Virus record (IMG/VR): IMGVR_UViG_3300006793_000177
Coordinates: 1 to 29,286 of that record
Strand: one strand, 5' to 3'
DNA from: a virus
DNA: 29,286 nucleotides
The notes under the pieces were generated by a model that did no database searches, was not told the origin of the DNA, and saw only the letters and a list, made by a program, of their open reading frames with translations. The translations under genes and the position numbers were made by a program. Within the stretch, counting starts at the first letter, position 1; every line of letters starts with the position of its first letter. Below are positions 2,939 through 29,286 of this stretch, in pieces.

Positions 2939-3778
2939 ATGATAGCAGAAGAACTCTTAAGAGAAAAGAAAATAGATTACCGCATCTCAGGACGAGACGC
3001 TGTAATATCGTGTCTGAACCCAGAGCATGATGATAGTAACCCTAGTATGAGAGTGGATAAAGTAACAGGTATATTTAACTGTTTCTCTTGTGGGTACAAA
3101 GGTAATCTGTTTACATACTTCGGTGCACCTGCTTCTCCACTAGAAGTTCGTATGCACAGAATCAAAGAAAAAGTAAATAAAGTTAAAAGCGAAACTGTCG
3201 GAATCCAACTCCCAAAGGATCGAGTACCGTGGAAAGGTGGTGGAATCAGAAATATATCTGAGGAGACTCTTGCAATATGGGGAGCGTTCACATGGAACGT
3301 ACCTCAATTCGAGAATCGTATCATCTTTCCTATACGCGACATCCGAGGAAAGACAGTGGCTCTGATTGGTAGAAGTCTGGACGACTTCAATATGAACAAG
3401 TATTTCATATATCCGAATGGTGCAGAGATGCCATTCTGTCCAGCTAAAATAAAACCAATACAGAATAGAGTTATATTGGTGGAGGGTATCTTTGATGCTC
3501 TTAACCTTTGGGACAAAGGTCTCAAGAATACAGTGTGCTGTTTTGGTACACAACAAGTTAATTGGGTCAAGCTAAGTCTACTTAAACTCCAAGGAGTACA
3601 AGGAGTAGACATTATGTTTGACGGGGATGAAGCGGGTGTAAAAGCTGGCGAGATGGCAAAAGGCTTGGCAGAACAACTAGAGTTAAGTGCTAGAGTAGTA
3701 AAACTACGAGATAATATAGACCCTGGCAATTTAACAAAACCAGAAATACAAAGATTAAAGGAAAAATTATATGGCTAA
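2939..3778 (+). CDS. DNA primase (Zn-finger plus TOPRIM)
   Basis: A 279-residue primase. The N-terminal zinc-binding module has C25, H30, C48 and C51 (CHC2-like, as in T7 gp4 and DnaG). The TOPRIM catalytic core has VEG (E182) and FDGDEAG (D228, D230). It would synthesise RNA primers at the fork for the polymerase encoded next, with the separate helicase at 274. In T7 these activities are fused, while here they are split. The ATG at 2939 is the only reasonable start: the next Met is residue 37, past the first two zinc ligands, and an in-frame stop lies upstream. There is no Shine-Dalgarno sequence and P1's -10 ends only 10 nt upstream, so the mRNA is probably leaderless. Confidence 0.9.
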   Translation: MIAEELLREKKIDYRISGRDAVISCLNPEHDDSNPSMRVDKVTGIFNCFSCGYKGNLFTYFGAPASPLEVRMHRIKEKVNKVKSETVGIQLPKDRVPWKGGGIRNISEETLAIWGAFTWNVPQFENRIIFPIRDIRGKTVALIGRSLDDFNMNKYFIYPNGAEMPFCPAKIKPIQNRVILVEGIFDALNLWDKGLKNTVCCFGTQQVNWVKLSLLKLQGVQGVDIMFDGDEAGVKAGEMAKGLAEQLELSARVVKLRDNIDPGNLTKPEIQRLKEKLYG

Positions 3779-6032
3779 AGTGGCAATAATAGAAAAAACA
3801 ATGTCAAGTACTAATTATGATAAGTACTTTGACTTCGAGTATGACCGATTTGCGTTATGCTCAGATAGTGGTAAACAAAAAATTCTGAAAAGAGATGTAG
3901 ATATCGAAATCGATACAGACTCGTACGATTGGCTTATTCTTGTAGGTTCTGAACCTTTCAAAATGTTTACTAGAAAGACATCCATAACAGAGTACAATGG
4001 AAAAATTGTTGATGATAAGTTTTTAGCTTTAATCAACCCTGCTATGATAAAGTTCAAACCAGAAGCAAAGAAGTCGTTCGAGGAAGCAGTCGAGAGTATA
4101 ACGGGATATGTAAGCGGAGAACTAACACAGAAGTCGCTAGGCGATGATAAATGTTTTGGTATCGAAGACACAGCAACTCTTCATAGATATCTAAAAGATG
4201 CCTTAGAGTACCCTTTAGACTATATCGCACTTGACTCAGAGACTTCATCTCTCTATCCGAGAAATGGGTATATGCTTGGTTTCTCTATGTCATACAAGAA
4301 AGAACATGGAGTATACGTAGACTGTGAGTGTATTGATGGCACAGCAGAACTACTTATGCAAGATATATTTAACAAGAAAAGAGTAGTATTTCATAACAGT
4401 AAGTTTGACTTACAATGGTTTGAGTATCATTTCAACTTTGAGTTCCCACACTTTGAAGATACAATGCTTATGCATTATATGTTTGATGAGAACCCAGGTA
4501 CACATGGTCTTAAGACTCTTGCAATCAAACACACAGATTATGGAGACTACGAAGCAGAACTTGATAACTGGAAAGCAGACTATATCAAAAGAACAGGAAT
4601 CCTCAAAGGAGACTTTAGTTATGATTTGATTCCTTTTGAAGTTATGAAAAGTTATGCTGCAATGGATGCCATAGTAACATTCTTGTTGTTTCAAAAGTTT
4701 GAAGCAGCTATATTGAGAAACGAGAAACTATATTGGGTATATAAGAATCTTCTAGTAGAAGGTGTTAGATTCCTGAAAGATGTAGAATCTAATGGTGTTC
4801 CTTTTGACAAGACTCGTCTAGAGTTTGGTCAGAAAAGAATGGGCGAAGATATACAAAAAGCAGTAGACGCCCTACAAGAGTTTCCTGAAGTCAAAGCATT
4901 TGTTGCGGCTAAGGGTGGATTTAATCCTAACTCAACTCTACAGCTTAGAAGTCTATTGTTTGATTACATAGGCTTAGCCCCAACGGGTAAGAAAACGGGT
5001 ACTGGTGCTGATAGCACTGATGCCGAAGTATTGGGTATACTAGCAGAACAACATGATGTACCAAAACATATCTTAGAGATTAGACAGAAAGTTAAAATCA
5101 AGAATACATATCTTGATAAGATTATCCCTAACCTTGACATAGATTCTAGATTGAGAACAAACTTCAATCTTCACGGTACAACTTCAGGTAGACTGTCCAG
5201 TAGTGGTAAACTAAATATGCAGCAGCTCCCAAGAGACAATCCGACAGTAAAGGGTTGTATCAAGGCGAAGGCTGGACATAAGATAGTCGCGATGGACTTA
5301 ACAACCGCAGAAGTATATTGTGCTGCAGTACTTGCTAAAGACAGAGGCCTACAGAATGTGTTTAAGTCTGGGGGTAATTTTCATAGTACAATTGCAAAAC
5401 AAGTGTTCAGACTTCCGTGTGAGGTAGAACAAGTTGCAGAACTATATGGAGACAAAAGACAACAAGCAAAAGCTGTTACCTTTGGTATCATGTACGGAGC
5501 AGGCCCGAAAAAGATTAGTGAGCAGGTCACTAAAGATAGTGGTACTGAGTTTTCTATGCAAGAAGCACAGTACGTTATCAAAGATTACTTTGAGGCTTTC
5601 CCTAAACTGCGAGAATGGTTGAATAATATGCAGAAGTTTATTCAAGCCAATGGTTTTATTTATTCTCATTTCGGAAGAAAGAGAAGACTACCAAATGTAT
5701 TCTCGTCAGATAAGGGAATCGCAGCTCATGAAGTAAGGTCAGGAGTTAATGCACTCGTACAGTCTGTATCATCCGACATCAATCTGCTTGGTGCAATCGA
5801 TACACAGAAGTATATTCGTAAGACTGGTATGAAAGCAAAGATATTTGCACTAGTGCATGACTCCATCTTAGCAGAAGTTCCTGATGATGAAATAGAACTC
5901 TATAGTAAGAAACTGAAAGAGTTTATCCAAAAAGATAGAGGACTGTCAATACCTGACGCTCCAGTTGGCTGTGACTTTGATGTTGCGGACGATTACTCTC
6001 TTGGTAAGTTTAGTAAGTTATACGGATTATGA
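3771..6032 (+). CDS. DNA polymerase, family A, with 3'-5' proofreading exonuclease
   Basis: A 753-residue Pol I-type enzyme without a 5'-nuclease domain; a separate flap nuclease is encoded at 16904. The DEDDy exonuclease has D155-S-E157, N-S-K-F-D213 and Y295-x-x-x-D299. The polymerase has motif A as MDLTTAEVY (D509, E514; the usual Arg of ELR is Tyr516), motif B RQQAKAVTFGIMYG (R563, K567, F571, Y575), and motif C VHDSI (H696, D697, S698). The residue equivalent to E. coli Phe762 is Phe571. Motif C normally reads HDE, so Ser698 is a departure. AAAGGA (3757-3762) serves as RBS, and the start overlaps the primase end by 8 nt. This is the replicative polymerase. The family is certain; the closest subfamily is not determined. 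Confidence 0.95.
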   Translation: MAKVAIIEKTMSSTNYDKYFDFEYDRFALCSDSGKQKILKRDVDIEIDTDSYDWLILVGSEPFKMFTRKTSITEYNGKIVDDKFLALINPAMIKFKPEAKKSFEEAVESITGYVSGELTQKSLGDDKCFGIEDTATLHRYLKDALEYPLDYIALDSETSSLYPRNGYMLGFSMSYKKEHGVYVDCECIDGTAELLMQDIFNKKRVVFHNSKFDLQWFEYHFNFEFPHFEDTMLMHYMFDENPGTHGLKTLAIKHTDYGDYEAELDNWKADYIKRTGILKGDFSYDLIPFEVMKSYAAMDAIVTFLLFQKFEAAILRNEKLYWVYKNLLVEGVRFLKDVESNGVPFDKTRLEFGQKRMGEDIQKAVDALQEFPEVKAFVAAKGGFNPNSTLQLRSLLFDYIGLAPTGKKTGTGADSTDAEVLGILAEQHDVPKHILEIRQKVKIKNTYLDKIIPNLDIDSRLRTNFNLHGTTSGRLSSSGKLNMQQLPRDNPTVKGCIKAKAGHKIVAMDLTTAEVYCAAVLAKDRGLQNVFKSGGNFHSTIAKQVFRLPCEVEQVAELYGDKRQQAKAVTFGIMYGAGPKKISEQVTKDSGTEFSMQEAQYVIKDYFEAFPKLREWLNNMQKFIQANGFIYSHFGRKRRLPNVFSSDKGIAAHEVRSGVNALVQSVSSDINLLGAIDTQKYIRKTGMKAKIFALVHDSILAEVPDDEIELYSKKLKEFIQKDRGLSIPDAPVGCDFDVADDYSLGKFSKLYGL

Positions 6033-8065: not shown

Positions 8066-8577
8066 TAATGATTATATCAAACTTCTTTACGGAAGACCAA
8101 GCTAACTTTTTCAGAACGTACTGTGACTATGCAAGTAATAATGATAGTCTAGAAGTAAGCCTAGTTACAGGTAAAAAGAATGAGAAAGTAGATAGAAATT
8201 ATTACACTCTTAGAAGTCATTACAAGTTTATGGATGAAGTAAAACAACTTTCAGAAAAAGAATTTGCAGAGACTTTATATTTTCAAAAATACACTTTTGG
8301 TCATATAATGCACTATCATACTCCAGGACAAGGACTTGAGTGGCATGCAGAACCTAATATTGCAACAGTATCTGTATCTGTAAATTTATCAAAAGACCAT
8401 GAATATACAGGAGCAGAGTTTCAAATAAAAGATGAACAGATACACTTACCATATAAAGCTGCAGTATTCTATGCTAGTAATAGAATGCATAGAGTTACGC
8501 CTTTAGGGAGTGGACAAAAGAAAAGTTTAGTCATGTGGCTACAAAATAAGGAACAAAGAAAATGTGCGGATTCGTAG
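8062..8577 (+). CDS. 2OG-Fe(II) oxygenase, prolyl-4-hydroxylase-like
   Basis: A 171-residue protein with the P4Hc-type layout. An N-terminal helical part (MIMIISNFFTEDQANFFRTY) leads to the jelly-roll core. The core has GLEWHAEPN (H95-x-E97), a TGAEFQI strand, an LPYKAAVFYAS strand and MHRVTPLGSGQKKSLVMWL, with distal His143 and basic K153/K154. The iron motif therefore reads H-x-E...H rather than the usual H-x-D...H, and Lys replaces the common Arg as candidate 2OG ligand. 'HRVTP..SG.+.SL' is characteristic of this family. Enzymes of this class hydroxylate proline or other side chains, peptides or metabolites. It is coupled by ATGA to the 41-aa ORF and overlaps the asparagine synthetase start by 16 nt. 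Confidence 0.75.
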   Translation: MIMIISNFFTEDQANFFRTYCDYASNNDSLEVSLVTGKKNEKVDRNYYTLRSHYKFMDEVKQLSEKEFAETLYFQKYTFGHIMHYHTPGQGLEWHAEPNIATVSVSVNLSKDHEYTGAEFQIKDEQIHLPYKAAVFYASNRMHRVTPLGSGQKKSLVMWLQNKEQRKCADS

Positions 8578-10070
8578 TAACAACACGAAAAAATGATATA
8601 GAACATATGACTATGCGACAAAAGCATAGAGGTCCAACTGACCATTCCTACTGGCAAGACGAAAAGTTAGCTTTTGGTCATGTATTGTTAGACGTAAATG
8701 GAACACATCAAATACAACCATTCAAAACTAAGAAGGGCAACATCTTAGTTTTTAATGGAGAGATGTATGATTCTAATATTGATAATGATACTGCCTTTTT
8801 AGGAAATGGATTAGACTTATTTGGATATAGATTTATAGCGAATACAGATTGGCACGGTTCTTTTGTGTATTATAATAAAAAGAAAAACAAATTAATTATA
8901 GCAAGAGATCATTTTGGTGCAAAACCTTTGTGGATATACAAAAAGGGTAAAGATTTAACAGTTAGTACAAGTCTAAGAAGTATACATTTTAAACAGAATA
9001 ATACTAAGACTCATCATATGTATATGAATAATCCCCTATGGTTAGGCAACGCTAGTCCGTATACTAATATAATTAAAGTAGCTCCTGGACAAATATGGGA
9101 ATTAAACTTAGAAACTCTTAATATTGAAAGAAGAAACTTATGGGGCAACTTTACAATTGGTAACTCAAATATAAATATAAACCAATTCAAAACAAACTTA
9201 ATAACTAGCATAAAGAAAGTAGCGAATACTAAACAGAAAACTGCTATATTTCTTAGCGGAGGTTTAGACAGCACTTGTGCCTTAGGCATACTAAAAGATA
9301 CAAATATAGATTTAACCGCTTACATTTGTGATTATGGAAAAGAAGGTGGGCTTGTGCATGACCATGATGGATTTCGTAAAGAAGCAAAGATGGCAATCAA
9401 AACTTGTCAAGAGTGGGGAGTGCCATATAAAGTTGTAAAACTAGACTATAGTTCCGTACATCATTATCATAGAATGTGGTTAGCACATACTCACTTTCCT
9501 TGGGTGGATAGAAATAGAACAGCACCTAGGTACTCTTTATGCAAAGCAGCAAGCCGTGACGGGTGTAAAGTAGTTCTAACTGGAGATAGTGCGGATGAAT
9601 TATTTACAGGCTATCAACATCATGATAGATATTATAATGATGAGTACAATAAAGAAACAATAGATCACTATGCCTCAAAACAAAAGTGGATTCCAAGGCA
9701 GATATTTAGTAAAACAGACTATAAAAACAATGCTCTTTGGTATGACTTAGTGAGTACATCAGAACAGAATATACTCACAACTGATCAAACCTGTGGTATG
9801 TGGGGAATGGAAAGCAGACCAGTGTTTCTTTCCCAAAGTTTTGTACGATACATGCTAAGTATAGAAAGTGGAGTAAAGTTCAAAACACACCCCGACCATC
9901 AGATTGGAACATATAAATATTTATTAAGAGAAGTTATGGCAGATTATTTGCCAAAGCATGTTCGTGATAGAAGAAACAAAACAGGGTGGTCATCGCCCTG
10001 GGACAATAATCATCAAGAGCTGACTAGACTATGGAAGCTACAAGATTTGGAGTTTATCTCGAATCTATGA
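8562..10070 (+). CDS. Glutamine-hydrolysing asparagine synthetase (AsnB-like)
   Basis: A 502-residue two-domain amidotransferase. The N-terminal class II glutaminase domain begins MCGF, with Cys2 as nucleophile, followed by HRGPTDH (HRGPD-like) and FNGEMYDS (NGE). RDHFGAKPLWIY matches the conserved RDxxGxKPL segment. The C-terminal synthetase domain has the PP-loop SGGLDST at 232-238 and TGDSADELFTGY (D345, E346), equivalent to the GADE-LF-GGY motif. The family uses ATP and glutamine to amidate aspartate or another carboxylate; related enzymes act on peptides and lactams. At 502 aa it is somewhat shorter than the ~550-aa bacterial enzymes but has all key residues. It follows two oxygenase-like genes, so a specialised amidation is possible. 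It overlaps the helicase gene downstream (ATGA at 10067). Confidence 0.85.
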   Translation: MCGFVVTTRKNDIEHMTMRQKHRGPTDHSYWQDEKLAFGHVLLDVNGTHQIQPFKTKKGNILVFNGEMYDSNIDNDTAFLGNGLDLFGYRFIANTDWHGSFVYYNKKKNKLIIARDHFGAKPLWIYKKGKDLTVSTSLRSIHFKQNNTKTHHMYMNNPLWLGNASPYTNIIKVAPGQIWELNLETLNIERRNLWGNFTIGNSNININQFKTNLITSIKKVANTKQKTAIFLSGGLDSTCALGILKDTNIDLTAYICDYGKEGGLVHDHDGFRKEAKMAIKTCQEWGVPYKVVKLDYSSVHHYHRMWLAHTHFPWVDRNRTAPRYSLCKAASRDGCKVVLTGDSADELFTGYQHHDRYYNDEYNKETIDHYASKQKWIPRQIFSKTDYKNNALWYDLVSTSEQNILTTDQTCGMWGMESRPVFLSQSFVRYMLSIESGVKFKTHPDHQIGTYKYLLREVMADYLPKHVRDRRNKTGWSSPWDNNHQELTRLWKLQDLEFISNL

Positions 10071-20471: not shown

Positions 20472-20659
20472 TGGCAACAATTACAATAGATGGAATTGAA
20501 CATGATTCCGATAACTTCAATAAAGACCAACAATTACTACATCATGCTATAAATTACTGTGATGCTAAATTAGCAGAAACAGATAATCAACTTGCAGCTT
20601 TAAAAACAGCAAGACAAGCATATGTCAATGATTTAGGTAATAGTTTAAAAGAAGACTAA
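20471..20659 (+). CDS. DUF6447-like small protein (62 aa)
   Basis: MATITIDGIEHDSDNFNKDQ followed by LHHAINYCDAKLAETDNQLA and ALKTARQAYVNDLG. The layout is a short beta-hairpin 'xITIDGxEyD' then a helix with 'vDaelaxlxxqlAALxTARxAY'. This matches my memory of DUF6447, a small protein common in marine phages without known function. The helical part could form a coiled coil. ATG 20471 is chosen because it overlaps the NrdB stop as TAATG; an in-frame TTG at 20453 is less likely. The TAA overlaps the next ATG in the same way at 20657-20661. Confidence 0.65.
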   Translation: MATITIDGIEHDSDNFNKDQQLLHHAINYCDAKLAETDNQLAALKTARQAYVNDLGNSLKED

Positions 20660-21306
20660 TGGTTATATACATTGGGTACGACTCTAGTCAGCCTGAGGCA
20701 TATGCCGTATGTGAGGCTTCCATACGTAAGTATAATGGAAGCCACACTATTAAACCTTTAATAAAGGACAAGATAGAGGAGTACTATAGACCTTTCCAAA
20801 ATGAAAGTACAGAATTTGCTTTTACTAGATTCTTAGTACCCTTTCTATCTGATTATCATGGAAACGCATTGTTCTGTGATAGTGATTTTATGTGGAAATG
20901 TGATCCGCAAGAGATTACATACCATACAAATGAAACGCATGATGTATACTGTGTGCAACACCCAGACTTTTTAGTGCCATGTAAGAAAATGAATAAGAAA
21001 GTAAACAGTTCTTATCCGAAGAAAAACTGGTCATCATTAATGTATTTCGATAACACAAGGTGTAGAAGGCTAACTCCTACCTATGTAAACCAAGCCCCAG
21101 CGGGTGCGTTGCATGAAATGAAATGGGCTACTTCAATCGGTAGTTTACCTGCAGAATTTAATGCCATGGTAAATTACTATCAATTTAAAGAACCAAAAGC
21201 AGTTCACTTTACAGACGGTGGACCGTGGCATGGTATCAATGACAACCTGGAATACTCCCAAGAATGGAACAAAATTTACGAAAGCTTACCGAAAACAAAT
21301 CAATAG
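20659..21306 (+). CDS. Glycosyltransferase-like protein (GT8-like)
   Basis: A 215-residue protein starting MVIYIGYDSSQPEAYAVCEA, a pattern of GT-A/GT8-like transferases ('I-Y-I-G-Y-D-x-x-x-P-x-A-Y-x-V-C-x-x-S-I'). STEFAFTRFLVPFL and NALFCDSDFMW supply the D-x-D metal site (D74-S-D76). The C-terminal AVHFTDGGPWHG resembles the HxxGxxKPW-like end of GT8 enzymes. It would transfer a sugar from a nucleotide-sugar donor; the acceptor is unknown. It is coupled by TAATG to the DUF6447-like gene and overlaps the next transferase-like gene by 43 nt, so the two are probably co-translated. Confidence 0.7.
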   Translation: MVIYIGYDSSQPEAYAVCEASIRKYNGSHTIKPLIKDKIEEYYRPFQNESTEFAFTRFLVPFLSDYHGNALFCDSDFMWKCDPQEITYHTNETHDVYCVQHPDFLVPCKKMNKKVNSSYPKKNWSSLMYFDNTRCRRLTPTYVNQAPAGALHEMKWATSIGSLPAEFNAMVNYYQFKEPKAVHFTDGGPWHGINDNLEYSQEWNKIYESLPKTNQ

Positions 21307-21923
21307 TACTTGTTGGAAACTCTGTTGAGTTACTGCAGTATGATCTTGGAGAGTACATAGATAACTTCGATACAGTTGTAAGATTTGGTAATGGAATACC
21401 TGACTCTACTAATTCTGATAATATTGGTGAGCGTACAGATATTTGGGTTACTGGATTTTTAAGATACAAAAAGAGAAATAAGTTTCCAAAAGATTGTGAA
21501 GTACTATTCAATCGTTCTCGTGTGCATCTGGGAGACGATGCGGATGATAGACATGACATACGTTTTAAATATGTTGATATGTTTTCGGACAAAGAGCTTG
21601 TGTCGATATTCAAGTTAGTTGGAGCGGAGAACCATGTAGCTGCAGGTGCAAGGCCTTCAGCAGGTTTCATTGCAATTCAATATTTTTTACAGAAAACAAA
21701 TTTTTCTACTCTTACATTGGTAGGATTTGATTTCTTTTCTAAGGCACTTCCAATTATCGCAGGTGCGAACAATCCATACAGTTGGCATATTCCTGTTAGC
21801 ACAATCAACAGCAATCCCCATTCCCCAAAGGAAAAAGAGATTGTGCTTGATTTATATGAGAGAGGAATAATTGATTGGAAAATTTTGACTGACTTAAATG
21901 AGGGTTACTTAGACCTTTCCTAA
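21264..21923 (+). CDS. Sialyltransferase-like (GT29-type) protein
   Basis: A 219-residue protein. SIVLVGNSVELLQYDLGEYI plus NFDTVVRFGNG (G18-N19-S20, R40-F41) matches the 'VGNSxxL...G..ID..D.V.R.N' L-motif of GT29 sialyltransferases. ARPSAGFIAIQYFL (131-141) and LTLVGFDFF (150-158) match the S-motif, and H186-S-P-K-E is the likely catalytic-base region (VS motif). GT29-like proteins occur in bacteria and phages, where the donor need not be CMP-sialic acid. The start overlaps the GT8-like gene by 43 nt. The last 15 bp overlap tail to tail with the - strand gene. The fold assignment is good; donor and acceptor are unknown. Confidence 0.65.
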   Translation: MEQNLRKLTENKSIVLVGNSVELLQYDLGEYIDNFDTVVRFGNGIPDSTNSDNIGERTDIWVTGFLRYKKRNKFPKDCEVLFNRSRVHLGDDADDRHDIRFKYVDMFSDKELVSIFKLVGAENHVAAGARPSAGFIAIQYFLQKTNFSTLTLVGFDFFSKALPIIAGANNPYSWHIPVSTINSNPHSPKEKEIVLDLYERGIIDWKILTDLNEGYLDLS

Positions 21924-22853
21924 ATAAAATCCCCTTTCTACTAATTTTCCTGTGGTTGCTTTCTGCTTTGCAGTTTTTGTTAGTAACACTTCGTTCAATC
22001 TAGCGTTTCTAAAGTTTAGTGGTATCTGGTCTATAAGTCTTGTATAACAATCCCAAGGCACTGATAGTTGTATGCCTGTCTGTAAGTTTAGATAATCTTT
22101 TGCTAAAAATCTGTGCTGAACATCTATACTCCAAGACTTTCTTAACATTACATTATAGTCTAATAGTTCTTTTGCTCCTATAGCATCTAGCTCTACTAAT
22201 GTATCAATCTTTCCATTTACATACAAAGGCGACCATGAATGATTATAGAATGTAAGTGCTTCAAAGAAAGCAAGATCTTTACACGCTATTAATTTAGTAT
22301 CTACTGCAGGTCTATTACCATTACTTACTGGCATCTTTTGATTCATGAAGAATAAATCTTTATCATGAAACTCACACAATCTGTCATAGTTAAGTACCAC
22401 AATTGATTTATCAACTAATGGTATGCTTTGATGAGATTTTGTAGCTATACCAAGTATGCCATAATAATTTGCCAAATGACTTTTATCGAATACTAAGTCT
22501 CTACTTAAAAATGAGAGTGAAGATTTGAAGAACTCTGCTGGTGGTATATCGCCTTCATCAATTGGTCTATTGAATATTCTATTACCATACCATACAATCA
22601 TTCTCTTAGCAAGTCCACCTTTATCTTTCCAATGGTCTTTTAAATGAAAAGTCATTCTTGATATATGGTCTTCTCTCCACCACGATTCATAAATCTTAAT
22701 GTTTTCAAAGTTATTTATCATCCAAGACACTTCTTTTTCTATCCAGTCTTCTTTGTGTATAAATAAGTGCAGACGAAATCCTGACTTATTCAGTAGAGAA
22801 GCTAAAGTGAAAAATGTCCAATCTTTCTTATATGTTGTTACTAGTTCTATCAT
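21909..22853 (-). CDS. Hypothetical protein (314 aa), last gene of the - strand arm
   Basis: A 314-residue protein starting MIELVTTYKKDWTFFTLASL. The ATG is chosen at 22853 because it forms an ATGA overlap with the upstream - strand gene; an in-frame ATG at 22877 would add 8 residues. Aromatic-rich segments (YESWWREDHI, FYNHSWSPLYVNGK) and a LVELDAIGAKELLDYNVMLR stretch are visible, but no motif places it in a family. The first ~55 residues (a hydrophobic strand, helix and FRLHLFIHKEDW) could be the first Rossmann-like unit of a transferase. It pairs with the next gene, which has GT-B-like motifs, so a joint role in glycan transfer is a weak inference. It meets the + strand GT29-like gene tail to tail. 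Confidence 0.75.
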   Translation of the reverse strand: MIELVTTYKKDWTFFTLASLLNKSGFRLHLFIHKEDWIEKEVSWMINNFENIKIYESWWREDHISRMTFHLKDHWKDKGGLAKRMIVWYGNRIFNRPIDEGDIPPAEFFKSSLSFLSRDLVFDKSHLANYYGILGIATKSHQSIPLVDKSIVVLNYDRLCEFHDKDLFFMNQKMPVSNGNRPAVDTKLIACKDLAFFEALTFYNHSWSPLYVNGKIDTLVELDAIGAKELLDYNVMLRKSWSIDVQHRFLAKDYLNLQTGIQLSVPWDCYTRLIDQIPLNFRNARLNEVLLTKTAKQKATTGKLVERGFYLGKV

Positions 22854-23749
22854 CCGTTTTTTACCTTCATGTTCCAAAAGTTATTCAGGAACAGCTCTTT
22901 TCGTTGTTCTGCATCTTCATCAAAACTAAAGATTATGCCTGAGTTTTTTGCTGAGAATATCTTCATTAGAGATTCTTTAGCGTTTGTGTTAGCTATTGCA
23001 TGGTAGATACTTTCATAAGTTAAGAGAGACTTTTCTCTATCCTCTTTTGTATGTGATACCATACTTAATTGTTTGTCTAGCATGAGTGCCATCAATCCCA
23101 TTTCGCTATTAGGCATTGTTGCACACTCTTTGCAGTTTGCAAGAAGTTCAAAACCTCCTACCTTTTTATCGAGTACATTTTCTTCCCCGTAGTCTTTTTT
23201 CAGTTTTGCTATCCACACTTTCTGAGTGATTGGGTGTGGTTTAATTACAAATCCGTTATCAACAGCACGTCTTACTCTGCCCCAATGTACACATCTACCT
23301 TTTGTAATTAAGTTAGTACCTGGTAAAAATATTACTTTATCATGGTACTTTTCATTTACACCTAGAGTATATTTATTATGAAAGTTATTTACAATTTTTT
23401 CACACCTTTCATGGTCTATCTCTAAGTAAGGGTCTTTAACAATTGACTCCATTAGCCTATCATTAATTTTAATACTAGAAACTCTTATTAAAATACCGTT
23501 TCCTAAAAAATCTGTATACAACCATTTGTGTACTGTATTGAGAGCATTAGTATTAAACCATATATCGTACTGAAATTTTGCACCTCTATGAGAGTCATCA
23601 ATAATTCTTTCCTTAAAAGCTTCTAGAGTATTTAGATCTTTTATAGGTCTATACGAAGACCCTGACTTCATAAAATGAGTAGGAATATCTCCCAAAGATT
23701 CCTTAATCGTCATGGCCTCCAAAGGTTTGCCTTTTCTTTTAAGTGCCAT
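22850..23749 (-). CDS. GT-B/capsule-transferase-like protein (tentative)
   Basis: A 299-residue protein. The C-terminal half contains KVIFLPGTNL, NGFVIKPHPITQK (a K-P-H-P element), GGFELLANCKECATMPNSEM and GLMALMLDKQLSMVSH. This order (strand, K-x-H-P, then 'x-S-E-x-G-x-x-A-L-x-x-x-K') recalls the nucleotide-binding half of GT-B enzymes such as capsule (KpsC/S-like) and CDP-glycerol transferases. The N-terminal half (FQYDIWFNTNAL, LIRVSSIKINDRL) is not diagnostic. It starts at 23749, overlapping the 54-aa gene by 11 nt. If it is a transferase, it lies downstream of and is probably cotranscribed with the Thr-rich repeat protein, a plausible substrate. The functional call is tentative. Confidence 0.7.
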   Translation of the reverse strand: MALKRKGKPLEAMTIKESLGDIPTHFMKSGSSYRPIKDLNTLEAFKERIIDDSHRGAKFQYDIWFNTNALNTVHKWLYTDFLGNGILIRVSSIKINDRLMESIVKDPYLEIDHERCEKIVNNFHNKYTLGVNEKYHDKVIFLPGTNLITKGRCVHWGRVRRAVDNGFVIKPHPITQKVWIAKLKKDYGEENVLDKKVGGFELLANCKECATMPNSEMGLMALMLDKQLSMVSHTKEDREKSLLTYESIYHAIANTNAKESLMKIFSAKNSGIIFSFDEDAEQRKELFLNNFWNMKVKNG

Positions 23750-23903
23750 TTTTTAGGTCAAATATTTGTTTCTCTAAATTTCTCATTCTCTTTTCTGATT
23801 CTTCAATTGAATCATACAAAGCATGCATCATACTTTCCATCTTATTGTTAACGTATTCTGGTGTTATCTTTGTTTCTTTTTCAAATCCGCCTTCGCTTTT
23901 CAT
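23739..23903 (-). CDS. Small coiled-coil protein (54 aa)
   Basis: Reading leftward from ATG at 23903: MKSEGGFEKETKITPEYVNN, then KMESMMHALYDSIEESEKRM and RNLEKQIFDLKNGT, TAA at 23741-23739. From residue 21 onward the hydrophobic spacing fits a short coiled coil (M, M, L, I, M, L, I, L at 3-4 intervals). It starts 2 nt after the repeat protein's stop and ends 11 nt into the next gene, so it fills the gap between them exactly. No family is recognised. Small coiled-coil proteins beside tail genes can be chaperones or connectors, but this is inference. Confidence 0.65.
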   Translation of the reverse strand: MKSEGGFEKETKITPEYVNNKMESMMHALYDSIEESEKRMRNLEKQIFDLKNGT

Positions 23904-23905
23904 TC

Positions 23906-26900
23906 TTAGTTGCTTTCACTCCATTGTGAGCCATCCCAGAAGGAATATCCGTAGTCGTCTAGACTGGAAACTTCTGTGTCGAATAAAGTTCCCACCTGTG
24001 AGGCTGTTGTTCTTTCATATACAACAGTAGATGTATTAAATACTGTTGTGGTTAAATGATCTGTTGCGATCGTTGTGTCTGTAGTTCTTGTGGTATTGAA
24101 AGTAGTTGTAGTAGTTCTGCCTGTAGCAAATGTTGTTGTTCTACTAGTTTCATATCCTGTAGTTGTATTAAACGCTGTCGTTCTTGAAGTTTCTGTACTT
24201 CTGGAAGACCCTGTTGACCTACTTGAACCTGTGACATTTTGAGTATTAAAAGTGGTTGTAGTACTTTTACTCGTTCCAGTCGTTCTAGTTGTGACCGTAC
24301 CTTGTGTGGTCGCAAACGTAGTTGTTGTTCCTCTATCTGTAAGAGTTGATCTACTTGATCCCGTTCCTCTGTCTGTTAAGAAAGTGGACGTAGTAGTTTT
24401 ACTTGTACCAGTACTTCTACTTGAAGCAGTACTTGTAGTTGTATTAAACACTGTAGAAGTATCTCTACTAGATGCTGTACTTCTTTGTGTACCTGTAGTA
24501 GTGTTTGTATTAAATACTGATACAGTAGTTCTACTTGATGCTGTACCTCTGCTAGTAATAGTAGATTGAGTTGTATTGAATACTGATGTAGTAGTTCTAC
24601 TAGATGCTGTACTTCTAGTTGTAATTGTACCTTGTGTGGTAGCAAATGTAGTAGTAGTATCTCTAGATGTAATAGTGCCTCTACTTGTTAAGCTTAGTCT
24701 TGAAGTATTAAATGTTGTTGTAGTATCTCTACTAGATGCTGTACTTCTTTGAGTGCCTGTAGTCTTAGTTGTATTAAACACTGTAGAAGTATCTCTACTA
24801 GATGCTGTACTTCTTTGTGTACCTGTATTTTTAGAAGTATTATATACTGTTGAAGTGTCTCTACTTGATGCAGTCGATCTACTAGTTAGTGAGGCTCTAG
24901 CTGTATTAAATACTGTAGTAGTATCTCTACTTGAAGCCGTCGATCTTGTAGTAATTGTACCTTGTGAAGTAGCAAAGGTAGTTGTAGTATTTCTACTTGT
25001 ACCTGTAGATCTTGAACTAATTCTACTTGTGATATATGCTGTCTCGTAACTTGTAGACTGTGAAGTATTATCTACATAAGCAGTACTTGTTGTAAACGTA
25101 GTATTTCTAGTAGTAGCTTGAGTAGTGTTCGTACTTCTAGCAGTGTTTGTTGATACTGAAGTGTTATCTTCATATGCTGTACTTGTAATAAACGTAGTAG
25201 TTCTAGTTGTAGACTGACTTGTATTAGTACTTCTAGCAGTATTTGATAATCTTAATGTATTGTACGTAGTTGACTGACTTGTATTAGTGCCTTGTGTAGT
25301 GTTTGTACTTTGTACTGTATTAGTACTTCTAGCAGTATTTGATAATCTTAATGTGTTATAACTTGTTGATTGAGAAGTATTAGTACCTTGTGTGGTATTT
25401 GTACCTTGGGTTGTATTAGTATTTCTACTTGTATTAGATAATCTTACTGTGTTATAGCTTGTTGATTGTGTAGTATTAGTTCCTTGTGTAGTATTAGTAC
25501 TCTGAACTGTATTAGTACTTCTAGCAGTATTAGATATTCTAACTGTGTTATAACTTGTTGATTGAGTTGTGTTAGTATTTCTACTTGTATTAGATAATCT
25601 TACTGTGTTATAACTTGTTGATTGTGTAGTATTTGTGTTCCTACTTGTATTAGATATTCTGACTGTGTTATAACTTGTTGATTGTGTAGTATTAGTACTT
25701 CTACTTGTATTTGTTGCTTGTGATGTACTTCTACTCGTATTTGTTGCTTGTGTAGTATTTCTACTTGTATTTGTTGCTTGAGAAGTATTATTTGTAAATG
25801 AAGTACTGTTTGTAAAACTTGTTGATCTACTTGTATTTGTAGATTGAGTAGTGTTAGTATTTCTACTTGTACCAAAACTTGTATTGTCTATGTAAGCAGT
25901 GATTCTACTTGTATTCGTATTTCTACTTGTACCAAAACTTGTATTGTCTATGTAAGCAGTAATCCTACTTGTATTTGTATTATTTGTAAAGCCTGTACTA
26001 TTAGTAAATGCTGTTATTCTAGCTGTATTATTTGTAAAGCCTGTACTATTAGTAAACGCTGTGTTTCTAGATGTATTAGTACTAAAGGAAGTATTGAAAC
26101 TAGTACTCGTAAAGTAAGAAGTAATTACTTGTTGTATAATACTTGTAGTTCTTGAAGTATTCTCTGTGATTGTTTCATAATATACTTCCCCTTCACTGTC
26201 CTCATTCTCCTCTTCAAATATTGTTATGTAAGTAGTAATTCTTATGCCTGGATATCCTGTAAATCTAGACGTAGGAAAACCTGCACCTGTTGCTCTAGTT
26301 GTTATATTTGTAAATGCTGTTGACCTACTTGTATTCGTATTTCTAGAAGTATTTGTAGCAAATGAGGTACTTCTCGATGTATTCGTATTTCTAGAAGTAT
26401 TAGTACTATTTGTAAATCCTGTTGACCTACTTGTATTTGTTGCTTGTGAAGTATTATACGCAGTTGAGTTTGTAAATCCAGTACTTCGACTTGTATTTGT
26501 TGCCTGTGTTGTAGTATATGAAGTTGAAGTTGCAAACGTTGTATTATCTACATAAGCAGTAATTCTACTTGTATTTGTATTTCTAGCAGTATTAGTAGCA
26601 AAGCTTGTATTATCTATATAAGCTGTTATAAATGTAGTGTTATCTATATATGCTGTTATAAATGATGTGTTATCTACATAAGCAGTATTTGTCGCAAACG
26701 TAGTATTTCTACTTGTAGCAAACGATGTATTGTCTTGGTATGCTGTTGCTGTTATAAATGTAGTATTTCTACTTGTAGCAAACGATGTATTGTCTTGGTA
26801 TGCTGTTGCTGTTATAAATGTAGTATTTCTACTTGTAGCAAACGATGTATTGTCTTGGTATGCTGTTGTAGTACTGAATGTAGTGTTAGTAGCAAATGTA

Positions 26901-28513
26901 GTATTTGTAATAAATGTGGTGTTTCTACTTGTAGCAAACGATGTGTTGTCTTGGTATGCTGTTGCAGTAGTAAATGTAGTATTTGTTCCAAAGGTTGTAT
27001 TTGTAATATAAGTAGTAGTTCTACTTGTAGCAAATGATGTATTATCTTGATATGCTGTTGAAGTAGTAAACGTAGTGTTAGTAGCAAATGTAGTATTTGT
27101 AATAAATGTAGTTGTTCTACTTGTGGCAAAGGATGTATTATCTTGATATGCTGTTGTTGTACTAAATGTAGTAGTAAATGAAGTAGACTGAGAAGTATTT
27201 GTGCTTCTAGCAGTATTTGATAACCTAAGTGTATTATCTATATATGCAGTACTTGTAGTAAAGGTAGTATTGTAGCCTGTAGACTGTGTAGTATTAGTAC
27301 TTCTAGCAGTGTTCGTTGCAAAAGATGTATTTCTACTTGTACTAATTACTGTATCATATGATGTAGTATAAGTAGTTGTAGTATTATATGCTGTAACTGT
27401 GCTTTGAGTTGTATTAAATACTGTTGTTGTACTAAAAGCGGTTGTTGTTGTAAATGCTGTTGTTGTACTTTGACTTGTATTAAAGGTTGTAGTAGTATTA
27501 AACGTTGTTGTTGTTGTATACGCTGTTGTTGTACTATGACTTGTATTAAAAGTTGTTGTCGTATTAAAAGCTGTTGTTGTTGTAAATGCAGTAGTAGTAC
27601 TTTGACTTGTATTAAAAGTCGTGGTAGTATTAAACGCTGTCGTAGTTGTAAAAGCTGTTGTAGTACTTTGTGTTGTATTAAACGTCGTCGTTGTGTTGAA
27701 CGTGGTTGTTGTAGTAAATGCAGTAGTAGTACTTTGTGTAGTATTAAATGTTGTTACAGTACTAAAAGCAGTTGTTGTTGTAAATGCTGTAGTTGTACCT
27801 TGTGAAGTATTAAATGTTGTTACAGTACTAAAAGCTGTTGTAGTTGTAAATGCGGTAGTAGTACTTTGACTTGTATTATATGTTGTTACAGTCGTAAAGT
27901 TAGTAGTTGTATTAAATGCAGTTGTTGTACTCTGACTTGTATTGTATGTTGTCGTTGTTGTAAATGCAGTAGTAGTATTAAATGCAGTTGTTGTAGCTTG
28001 TGTAGTATTAAACGTAGTTGTAGTTGTATACGCTGTTGTGGTATTAAAAGCTGTTGTAGTACTCTGTGTTGTATTGAACGTTGTCGTTGTTGTAAATGCA
28101 GTAGTAGTATTAAATGCAGTTGTTGTACTTTGAGTTGTATTGTACGTTGTTGTAGTAGTGAATGCAGTTGTAGTTGTATAAGCTGTTGTGGTATCAAATG
28201 CTGTTGTTCTACTAGTTTCAGTAACGTTGCCTGTGTTGAATGTTGTTGTTCTACTAGTATCAAAAGTAGTAAGAGTACTTTGAGTTGTGTTAAATGTAGT
28301 AGTTGTAGAGAAAGAAGTATCTTGTAATCCACTAATAGTACTAGTACTAGTAGCAGTATTTCTAGACGTCTCGTGTGTAACCGTAAACGGGCCTTCTAGA
28401 CTTCCGCTATCGTTTACATAGACTTCATTGATTCTTCTAAGCGTACCATTATCATTAATTGCCAGAAAGGAAATTTGACGAAGCGTTCCACTATCATTAA
28501 CATATATTGCCAT
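23906..28513 (-). CDS. Giant Thr/Ser/Asn-rich repeat protein, probable tail-fibre or surface component (1535 aa)
   Basis: The N-terminus (1-42) has three copies of a VNDSGTLRxI-like unit (YVNDSGTLRQI, INDNGTLRRI, YVNDSGSLEG), a pattern seen at the start of phage tail proteins. Almost everything after is Thr/Ser/Asn repeats. A 22-residue class carries FNTTQST and TTAF (about 27370-28250). A mixed region is rich in NTSR and NTTQST. A 20-residue class carries YQDNTSFATSR (about 26580-27180). A second 22-residue class carries RSTASSRDT (about 24070-25020). An acidic, proline/glycine-containing island (FEEENEDSEGEVYYETITEN and FPTSRFTGYPG) breaks the repeats at about 26150-26300. No Cys is seen, and Trp occurs only in the last residues (SFWDGSQWSESN). 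I infer a fibrous beta-structure in the virion. It follows two tail-type genes on the same strand. Confidence 0.85.
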   Translation of the reverse strand: MAIYVNDSGTLRQISFLAINDNGTLRRINEVYVNDSGSLEGPFTVTHETSRNTATSTSTISGLQDTSFSTTTTFNTTQSTLTTFDTSRTTTFNTGNVTETSRTTAFDTTTAYTTTTAFTTTTTYNTTQSTTTAFNTTTAFTTTTTFNTTQSTTTAFNTTTAYTTTTTFNTTQATTTAFNTTTAFTTTTTYNTSQSTTTAFNTTTNFTTVTTYNTSQSTTTAFTTTTAFSTVTTFNTSQGTTTAFTTTTAFSTVTTFNTTQSTTTAFTTTTTFNTTTTFNTTQSTTTAFTTTTAFNTTTTFNTSQSTTTAFTTTTAFNTTTTFNTSHSTTTAYTTTTTFNTTTTFNTSQSTTTAFTTTTAFSTTTVFNTTQSTVTAYNTTTTYTTSYDTVISTSRNTSFATNTARSTNTTQSTGYNTTFTTSTAYIDNTLRLSNTARSTNTSQSTSFTTTFSTTTAYQDNTSFATSRTTTFITNTTFATNTTFTTSTAYQDNTSFATSRTTTYITNTTFGTNTTFTTATAYQDNTSFATSRNTTFITNTTFATNTTFSTTTAYQDNTSFATSRNTTFITATAYQDNTSFATSRNTTFITATAYQDNTSFATSRNTTFATNTAYVDNTSFITAYIDNTTFITAYIDNTSFATNTARNTNTSRITAYVDNTTFATSTSYTTTQATNTSRSTGFTNSTAYNTSQATNTSRSTGFTNSTNTSRNTNTSRSTSFATNTSRNTNTSRSTAFTNITTRATGAGFPTSRFTGYPGIRITTYITIFEEENEDSEGEVYYETITENTSRTTSIIQQVITSYFTSTSFNTSFSTNTSRNTAFTNSTGFTNNTARITAFTNSTGFTNNTNTSRITAYIDNTSFGTSRNTNTSRITAYIDNTSFGTSRNTNTTQSTNTSRSTSFTNSTSFTNNTSQATNTSRNTTQATNTSRSTSQATNTSRSTNTTQSTSYNTVRISNTSRNTNTTQSTSYNTVRLSNTSRNTNTTQSTSYNTVRISNTARSTNTVQSTNTTQGTNTTQSTSYNTVRLSNTSRNTNTTQGTNTTQGTNTSQSTSYNTLRLSNTARSTNTVQSTNTTQGTNTSQSTTYNTLRLSNTARSTNTSQSTTRTTTFITSTAYEDNTSVSTNTARSTNTTQATTRNTTFTTSTAYVDNTSQSTSYETAYITSRISSRSTGTSRNTTTTFATSQGTITTRSTASSRDTTTVFNTARASLTSRSTASSRDTSTVYNTSKNTGTQRSTASSRDTSTVFNTTKTTGTQRSTASSRDTTTTFNTSRLSLTSRGTITSRDTTTTFATTQGTITTRSTASSRTTTSVFNTTQSTITSRGTASSRTTVSVFNTNTTTGTQRSTASSRDTSTVFNTTTSTASSRSTGTSKTTTSTFLTDRGTGSSRSTLTDRGTTTTFATTQGTVTTRTTGTSKSTTTTFNTQNVTGSSRSTGSSRSTETSRTTAFNTTTGYETSRTTTFATGRTTTTTFNTTRTTDTTIATDHLTTTVFNTSTVVYERTTASQVGTLFDTEVSSLDDYGYSFWDGSQWSESN
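24070..25020 (-). repeat. 66-bp (22-aa) repeat array, C-terminal block
   Basis: Units of the type RSTASSRDTTTVFNTARASL recur with a 66-bp period. As a direct check, the 62 bases at 24436-24497 recur identically at 24766-24827, an offset of 330 = 5 x 66. The reading frame is preserved throughout. Confidence 0.85.
25861..25960 (-). repeat. 60-bp tandem pair encoding a 20-aa unit
   Basis: Bases 25861-25900 recur identically at 25921-25960, spaced exactly 60 bp. The unit encodes the AYIDNTSFGTSRNTNTSRIT-type repeat on the - strand. Confidence 0.85.
26701..26868 (-). repeat. Exact 60-bp tandem repeat (2.8 copies)
   Basis: Bases 26701-26760 and 26761-26820 are identical, and 26821-26868 repeats the first 48 bases again. 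A diverged copy follows near 26921-26979. The unit encodes 20 residues including AYQDNTSFATSRNT on the - strand, so copy changes would keep the frame. Confidence 0.92.
27370..28250 (-). repeat. 66-bp (22-aa) repeat array, N-terminal block
   Basis: On the + strand, GTACTTTGACTTGTATTAAA-type landmarks occur at 27465, 27531 and 27597, spaced exactly 66 bp. The block encodes units such as TTAFNTTTAFTTTTT plus FNTTQST. The copies are diverged at third positions, unlike the exact 60-bp repeats near 26.7 kb. Confidence 0.8.
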
Positions 28514-28516
28514 GTC

Positions 28517-28738
28517 TTAACTCGAATATACGAACCATATATGACCATCCACAGTACCAGCAGTATTTGTAGGAGCGGTAGTCGTTATAGTTCTTGGCAA
28601 TCTTGCCGAAGCCATAGTACCACTAGTAATTTTTCCTGTGGCTACTGCACCCTCAAAGTTTCTACTTGCATCGATGGCATCAGCACCATCAATCTTTAAT
28701 CCTGAATCTTCGATATTAAAATCTAATTTTTGTCCCAT
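28517..28738 (-). CDS. Small tail/structural-type protein (73 aa)
   Basis: MGQKLDFNIEDSGLKIDGAD leads to a linker and a C-terminal segment TITTTAPTNTAGTVDGHIWF. The 'TTxAPTxxxGxxGxIWF' ending is a pattern I associate with small modules in marine phage tail fibres and baseplate-like proteins. AGAGG six nucleotides before the ATG (- strand) is a clear RBS. A TATAAATA octamer lies further upstream at 28765-28772. The stop lies 3 nt before the start of the giant repeat protein, so the two are surely cotranscribed and perhaps assemble together. No enzyme motif is seen. Confidence 0.7.
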   Translation of the reverse strand: MGQKLDFNIEDSGLKIDGADAIDASRNFEGAVATGKITSGTMASARLPRTITTTAPTNTAGTVDGHIWFVYSS

Positions 28739-28739
28739 T

Positions 28740-29286
28740 TTATACCTCTATTGTTGTTCTTATATATTTATAAGCCATTGTATCACCACTTGCTGGTGTT
28801 ACTCTTAATCTTACATTACCGCCACTTATATCTGCGTCAAAAGATGCTTGAGCACCATTATCAAATATAGAAGCGTACTGTGTTAAATAAACTGTTGTTC
28901 CATCGTGAAATAAGAATATTTCTATAGCATGATAGTCTCCATCTGTAGAGTTAGTTACAGATACTGTGTACTTAGCAGTTCTAAATGTAGCTGCTGTAAA
29001 ACTATCTAGTGTAAATTGTGCTGTTGAAGATGAAGTTCCTGTGCCTACATCCATACCAGCTACTTCGTCTATGTGAAGTTTTTGAACTGGGTTTGCATCT
29101 TGAATACCTAACTTACCTTTTACCTCAAGTATAGCACTAGTGCCACTACCAATATTGATATTAGCTCCACTAAATCCTATATTCCCTGACATGCTTTTAC
29201 TATCAAGTGCTGCACTTGATAATTGTGTAGATGTTACTGCATTATTTGCAATCTCACTTGACCCAACAGCGTTTGCTGCTATCTTA
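28740..29286 (-). CDS. Tail-fibre-like protein, C-terminal part (5' end outside the window)
   Basis: The frame is open from the right edge to TAA at 28742-28740, so the gene starts beyond the window; the internal Met at 29192 is probably not the start. The visible N-terminal part contains AANAVGSSEIANNAVTSTQL, the 'IAxNAVTxxxL' repeat of many phage tail fibres. Then follow INIGSGTSAILEVKGKLGIQ and NPVQKLHIDE, the 'GIGxxNPxQKLH' beta-repeat that often precedes chaperone or receptor-binding domains. The C-terminal ~110 residues form a beta-rich, soluble-looking domain (AQFTLDSFTAATFRTAKYTV, YHAIEIFLFHDGTTVYL) that resembles a small fibre head. It is one nucleotide from the next gene. Confidence 0.8.
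   Translation of the reverse strand, partial: KIAANAVGSSEIANNAVTSTQLSSAALDSKSMSGNIGFSGANINIGSGTSAILEVKGKLGIQDANPVQKLHIDEVAGMDVGTGTSSSTAQFTLDSFTAATFRTAKYTVSVTNSTDGDYHAIEIFLFHDGTTVYLTQYASIFDNGAQASFDADISGGNVRLRVTPASGDTMAYKYIRTTIEV
28765..28772 (-). promoter_or_regulatory. Possible T4-like late promoter octamer (TATAAATA)
   Basis: Reading the - strand, TATAAATA occurs inside the end of the fibre gene, 26 nt before ATG 28738. It equals the T4 late-promoter -10 octamer. A T4-type late sigma factor is not seen in this window and chance matches are likely in AT-rich DNA, so this is a weak call. Confidence 0.2.

Follow-up and report, generated by a model that had tools for sequence, protein, structure and literature searches.

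The window analysed here is a stretch of viral DNA of 29,286 nucleotides (IMG/VR record IMGVR_UViG_3300006793_000177, positions 1 to 29,286), and our subject is a gene on its minus strand that encodes a Thr-rich protein of 1535 residues. The N- and C-terminal halves of this protein match each other in antiparallel order, residue i with residue (length + about 14-16) - i, and this mirror complementarity is a fact of the sequence. The pattern argues that the protein is very probably a lambda-like siphovirus side tail fibre built as one giant antiparallel β-hairpin. The gene and its parts are as follows:

23906-28513, minus strand: Thr-rich gene of the proposed hairpin fibre, 1535 residues, ATG start
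28385-28513, minus strand: conserved N-terminal domain, residues 1-43, with three similar YVNDSGTLRxI-type stretches, near-invariant in an alignment of 25 sequences; the probable virion anchor
26279-28336, minus strand: N-terminal arm, residues 60-745, with 22-residue units near the base and a mosaic of units towards the tip
26150-26242, minus strand: tip segment, residues 758-788, acidic, non-repeat and hairpin-like, with the mirror centre at residue 775 (bases 26189-26191)
24047-26101, minus strand: C-terminal arm, residues 805-1489, complementary to the N-terminal arm, residue i opposite residue 1550 - i
23909-24046, minus strand: conserved C-terminal domain, residues 1490-1535, reading ERTTAS..GTLFDTEV..WDGSxWS

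The acidic, non-repeat segment of the protein lies at mid-chain, and because its place suggested a hairpin we measured the mutual information (MI) between residue classes at positions i and S - i. MI peaks at 0.67, over a median of 0.22, when S equals length - 1 + 14 (0-based), while the best parallel offset (500-999) reaches 0.32. At the mirror register, 121 of the 128 arm aromatics stand opposite Arg, Gln, Lys or His. One face of the protein carries Thr opposite Thr (167 times) together with aromatics opposite Arg, Gln or Lys, and the other face carries N:N, N:S, A:S, T:S and T:G pairs. A palindrome in the DNA was ruled out, base complementarity being 36.7% at the mirror register with a median of 25.7%. 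Between residues 43 and 1500, Phe or Tyr falls at even positions in 135 of 140 cases and Arg in 81 of 82, and Asn falls at odd positions in 130 of 143. This alternation of side chains, which extends over about 1450 residues, is the mark of an extended β-chain with two faces.

Relatives were collected from IMG/VR. A search with patterns from the 1535-residue protein gave 64 loci, a search with two conserved C-terminal alignment patterns gave 217 loci, of which the best 80 were used, and searches from two other members gave 108 and 54 loci; these sets overlap. Members entered the mirror test if they had a plus-strand, Thr-rich open reading frame of more than 200 residues with the N-terminal motif and F/YWDGS. 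The first set contained 85 full-length members of 123, 48 of them distinct; in the later set 27 of 108 loci were without a full-length member, and only previously unseen sequences were counted (n = 17). The 65 distinct full-length members are 668-1621 residues long and have in common an N-terminal domain of ~43 residues and a C-terminal domain of ~45 residues. Dropping same-length sequences more than 80% identical gave 33 representatives, which are partly still related. The locus table excludes L004, and one viewing alignment excludes six representatives.

The register is shared by the family. In all 48 distinct members of the first set, with S scanned over 0.85-1.15 of the length, the MI peak falls at offset 14, 15 or 16 (24, 21 and 3 members, respectively), with peak values of 0.26-0.72 and medians of 0.10-0.28. 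When the 17 later members were scored with pair scores learned from the 33 representatives (S range 0.7-1.3 of the length), every one peaked at offset 14-16 (2, 13 and 2 members); by MI alone, 16 of them peak at offset 12-18, the exception being L174. The alternation is likewise general, as 89-96% of the informative residues in the 48 members obey the parity when switches are allowed at a cost, most members needing 0 to 2 switches and a few up to 8.

Pairs pooled from the 33 representatives (15,459 pairs, from sequences that are related and not independent) define the matching rule. Aromatic residues are paired with Arg, Gln, Lys or His 2441 times (271 expected), Thr with Thr 3979 times (2465 expected) and Asn with Asn 507 times (155 expected); pairs between two aromatics (8 observed, 122 expected) and among Arg, Gln, Lys and His (42 observed, 117 expected) are depleted. 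Tyr is chiefly opposite Arg (706, with Gln at 24 and Lys at 15), and Phe is opposite Arg (911), Gln (651) and Lys (120). Changes between related members are compensatory: we counted 70 double class changes versus 1.3 expected, the representative pairs not being independent, and 57 of the 70 are aromatic:R/Q/K/H pairs swapped in orientation. Counted by distinct site, there are 21 double changes (14 of them swaps) and 16 single changes. The matching rule itself looks new; a literature search over titles and the starts of abstracts, with subscription journals and preprints thinly covered, found no paper on such a family or code.

The arms were compared with those of other proteins and of one another. 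Own arms give a mean MI of 0.653 (n = 33) versus 0.300 for arms taken from different members (n = 1056), and the own partner arm is the best in 29 of 33 cases (exceptions L021, L038, L102 and L054). The control proteins, namely five large fibres of the same phages, a J-like protein, a tape measure, a second fibre and T4 gp37, have highest z values between 3.6 and 5.2, with offsets that are scattered; the 1535-residue protein reaches 17.4 at +14.

The mirror centre, calculated from the arms alone, lies no more than 12 residues from the 9-mer richest in Asp, Gly, Pro and Glu in 29 of the 33 representatives (exceptions L021, L102, L054 and L019). It reads FDPExGT in eight of them, which we take to be a typical β-hairpin turn; the designed mini-protein chignolin has a turn like it. 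In the 1535-residue protein the tip reads ITTYITIFEEENEDSEGEVYYETITE. The global minimum of Thr + Ser + Asn content falls at 0.48-0.53 of the length in 38 of 48 members and, with the tip sought between 0.42 and 0.58, the lengths of the two arms correlate at 0.996 with a slope of 0.998 (n = 47, as L118 is without the C-terminal landmark). Across 13 pairs of equal length, conservation is usually lower in the tip than in the arms (for example, 0.59 versus 0.96 and 0.66 versus 0.94); L031/L037 is an exception, and two L043 pairs are spoilt by an indel in one arm. The tip probably touches the host and is a putative receptor contact.

From these data we infer a hairpin formed within one chain, with a distal tip that binds a receptor. 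The chain would extend for ~700 residues, turn at the variable residues at about 758-788 and return, so that the conserved ends would meet at the base. Thr would lie opposite Thr and aromatics opposite Arg, Gln or Lys on one face, with Thr, Ser, Asn, Ala and Gly on the other. Acting as a code, the order and orientation of the pairs would hold the two arms in register; slippage of the arms would be prevented by the mixed unit order and by the way in which the aromatic:Arg pairs are oriented. The base would attach to the virion, the distal tip would contact the host and arm length would set the reach. Arms are about 280-760 residues long across members; fully extended, at 0.33 nm per residue, they would reach 93 to 250 nm, and 236 nm in the 1535-residue protein, which is an upper bound. 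Three hairpins may assemble into a needle of six strands whose small-residue faces point inward, a guess towards which we lean and the most uncertain part of the proposal.

Antiparallel pairing between different chains, either in a homodimer or with arms swapped within an oligomer, would obey a rule, i + j = constant, identical to that of an intramolecular hairpin. We consider such pairing unlikely, since the mirror centre coincides with a variable, turn-like segment in most representatives (29/33 within 12 residues, FDPExGT in 8/33) and a plain antiparallel dimer would have a conserved anchor at each fibre end.

A second alternative comes from the repeats. Tandem Repeats Finder located 66-bp arrays at 27363-28193 (12.6 copies) and 24438-24871 (6.6 copies) and 60-bp arrays at 25509-25711, 25857-25981 and 26696-26868. 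The original prediction, a note made from the letters of the window, had described the protein as almost wholly made of 20- and 22-residue repeats; these repeats are real, but the description is a simplification because arrays of 96, 48, 30 and 18 bp coexist with them in the gene. Unit lengths are mixed, from 6 to 32 residues, and almost always even. Spacings between aromatics are also chiefly even, being 6 (61 times), 10 (17), 22 (12), 8 (9) and 4 (8) residues. The tandem 20- and 22-residue units, with aromatics at 6, 6 and 10, would suit the regular β-solenoid that the prediction had offered. However, the mixed unit lengths do not provide a constant coil length, the mirror register exceeds all parallel offsets in the range scanned (0.67 versus at most 0.32), and a solenoid offers no reason for complementary halves. 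The strongest long-range regularity is thus mirror pairing rather than stacking at a fixed coil length, and a solenoid with coils of 20 or 22 residues is very improbable.

The composition had been called correctly: Thr dominates (37.4%), followed by Ser (13.9%) and Asn (9.7%), Cys is absent and Trp is confined to the C-terminal end (residues 1526 and 1531 only). The view that the repeat belongs to no named family also stands. Neither Pfam nor PHROGs contains a family that matches the 1535-residue protein, and the PDB yields one weak, composition-like match, Crov588 (PDB 6nyr), a 22-residue repeat protein with the same periodicity (phmmer E 0.0044). We judged that relationship to be chance, as the alignment shows only Thr, Asn and Phe composition and no common pairing pattern. 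No relatives were found in bacterial and archaeal genomes (84,980 prokaryote species, one genome per species). A tblastn search of the whole protein against phage isolates, with the low-complexity filter on, gave no match; because this filter masks low complexity, distant Thr-rich relatives in isolates could be missed. With the N-terminus, the C-terminus or a middle stretch as the query, phage isolates yielded only weak matches, with best E values of 0.07, 8 and 8, respectively, and H87, considered as an isolate relative, was rejected because it is not Thr-rich.

Several results weigh against the hairpin. Some weak members have robust z values of 5.0-6.2, overlapping the best control (5.2), and for those whose z is no higher than that control only the constant offset counts. 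The T4 gp37 needle is not clearly recovered by the mirror scan, which places its best centres at 954-960 with about 60 pairs and, over the whole protein, has its best offset elsewhere. The best MI of L174 falls at another offset, L054, L102 and L049 have a register that drifts from one part of the arm to another, and a single global register places only 33-54% of aromatics opposite Arg, Gln, Lys or His in nine later members (of 17). In L021, L038 and L043 one arm, and not the other, apparently carries a 20-residue indel; such a change would disrupt a rigid register, and it may reflect one-unit slippage or an assembly error. A secondary peak, only partly explained, lies 3 residues off the register (conditional MI 0.24 versus about 0.13). 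Finally, AlphaFold2 gave a mean predicted local distance difference test score (pLDDT) of 31.8 for the 752-residue L036 (25 sequences), with strands at the two ends only and at low confidence, and, for the 111-residue centre of L100 (7 sequences, picked by eye), a score of 47.7 without any assigned secondary structure.

Two further observations concern these registers. In L021, L038 and L043 the register is re-centred on the tip despite the 20-residue difference between arms. Conditional MI shows extra signal at -3 and -1 that is inseparable from motif effects within one arm, and it separates no second strand neighbour.

The genes around the fibre gene are listed below; those at 20659-23749 lie downstream of it, and counts refer to loci with at least 4.2 kb of downstream or at least 4 kb of upstream sequence.

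28740-29286, minus strand: C-terminal end of a large tail-fibre gene, the rest of which lies beyond the contig; matches PHROG tail families at E about 5e-6
28517-28738, minus strand: 73-residue gene directly upstream of the fibre gene, seen in 17 of 23 loci
22850-23749, minus strand: 299-residue neighbour, function unknown, matching a PHROG of unknown function at E 4e-44; 42 of 42 loci
21909-22877, minus strand: 322-residue neighbour, function unknown, with no PDB profile match; 42 of 42 loci
21264-21923, plus strand: GT29 (sialyltransferase-like) gene, convergent with the fibre block, matching PF00777 at E 1.8e-5 (24.7 bits, cut-off 23); 42 of 42 loci
20659-21306, plus strand: 215-residue gene, sugar-transferase-like by eye only, with no Pfam and no PDB match; 42 of 42 loci

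The large fibre gene is upstream in 23 of 23 loci, and its full-length relative in L014 matches tail-fibre PHROGs. In a 105-kb relative, PHROG labels identify a terminase (TerL), portal, major tail, tape measure, minor tail and tail assembly proteins and a 2687-residue J-like protein. The J-like gene is followed by smaller genes, a tail fibre of ~1000 residues, the 73-residue gene and the Thr-rich fibre gene. Because of this gene order we take the carrier to be a lambda-like siphovirus with the Thr-rich gene in the side-fibre position, downstream of the J-like gene in the tail module. The β-structured virion appendage that the prediction proposed is supported by this setting, in which a large tail-fibre gene and the 73-residue gene precede the Thr-rich gene and, in the 105-kb relative, the tail module lies upstream. 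The J-like protein of that relative has a Hint-like domain at its end (L014:2-1381; Hom_end_hint, E 2.7e-8; PT-HINT, E 2.5e-5).

The order and orientation of the four downstream genes are kept in all 42 loci, and the neighbour genes gave no PDB profile match and no NCBIfam match. Weak relatives of the 299-residue neighbour occur in phages of Vibrio, Caulobacter and Stenotrophomonas (28 records, identity below 60%) and are hypothetical where annotated. These four genes might glycosylate the Ser/Thr-rich fibre. A mucin-like, largely disordered spacer, O-glycosylated on Ser and Thr by the transferase-like neighbours, would fit the 51% Ser + Thr, the GT29-like gene with its three conserved companions at 42 of 42 loci and the absence of a confident AlphaFold2 fold, but it is the least probable of the alternatives, as disorder leaves the strict alternation, the residue-level complementarity of the halves and the compensatory swaps unexplained; glycosylation may instead occur on top of the hairpin.

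A terminator was looked for in 23600-24050 without success, and promoter-like sites were no different from those in shuffled sequence. Elsewhere in the window are a DNA polymerase gene (3771-6032), whose product is about 46% identical to those of T5-like phages of Vibrio, Salmonella and Pantoea, although the structural genes of a relative appear lambda-like; a sulfotransferase family gene (1783-2436; PF03567, E 3.8e-7); and, among replication genes, an asparagine-synthase-like gene with a glutamine amidotransferase domain (8562-10070).

On balance, we favour regarding the hairpin fibre as the protein equivalent of complementary strands. A single chain would supply two arms, each of up to about 750 residues, matched by a code of Tyr-Arg, Phe-Arg/Gln/Lys, Thr-Thr and Asn-Asn pairs that holds register over up to about 250 nm and presents a host-contact tip at the turn; units would be exchangeable, and arms extendable, if both arms change together. 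If this is true, register is written in the sequence as a readable pairing code, and architecture can be inferred where structure prediction fails. We would also have a rule for β-structures that are very long, thin and self-registering, hundreds of uncultured phages could be assigned a probable host-contact tip, and "low-complexity" repeat proteins would be shown to be able to conceal long-range complementarity.

Among known systems, slender, repetitive, β-structured phage fibres are exemplified by the T4 gp5 triple-stranded β-helix, as part of one source describes (PMC3004832). The proposed hairpin fibre resembles gp5 and similar trimeric β-fibres in these respects. The gp5 type differs, however, in having an octapeptide repeat and parallel, intertwined chains, and mirror complementarity of halves is not described in the accessible part of that paper (PMC3004832). 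The tip of T4 gp37 is a six-stranded antiparallel needle to which lambda Stf has been likened (in part of PMC7291167), and the gp37 specificity region, residues 932-965, lies within the last 215 residues (according to part of PMC9659904). No Pfam or PHROGs match and no gp37 chain in the PDB sequence search indicates homology to gp37. The His-x-His iron-site motif, a feature of the gp37 needle, is absent from the 1535-residue protein and present in one of the 65 members (L174). The side-fibre position after J is shared with this group, and the antiparallel arms suggested by the mirror pairing of the sequence, with a variable, putatively receptor-binding tip inside the chain, would resemble those of the gp37 and Stf needle. 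Unlike in that needle, the arms of the Thr-rich protein occupy nearly the whole chain, over hundreds of residues, and carry an aromatic:Arg/Gln code. A trimer of hairpins would match the T4 gp37 plan at many times the length and with a different chemistry.
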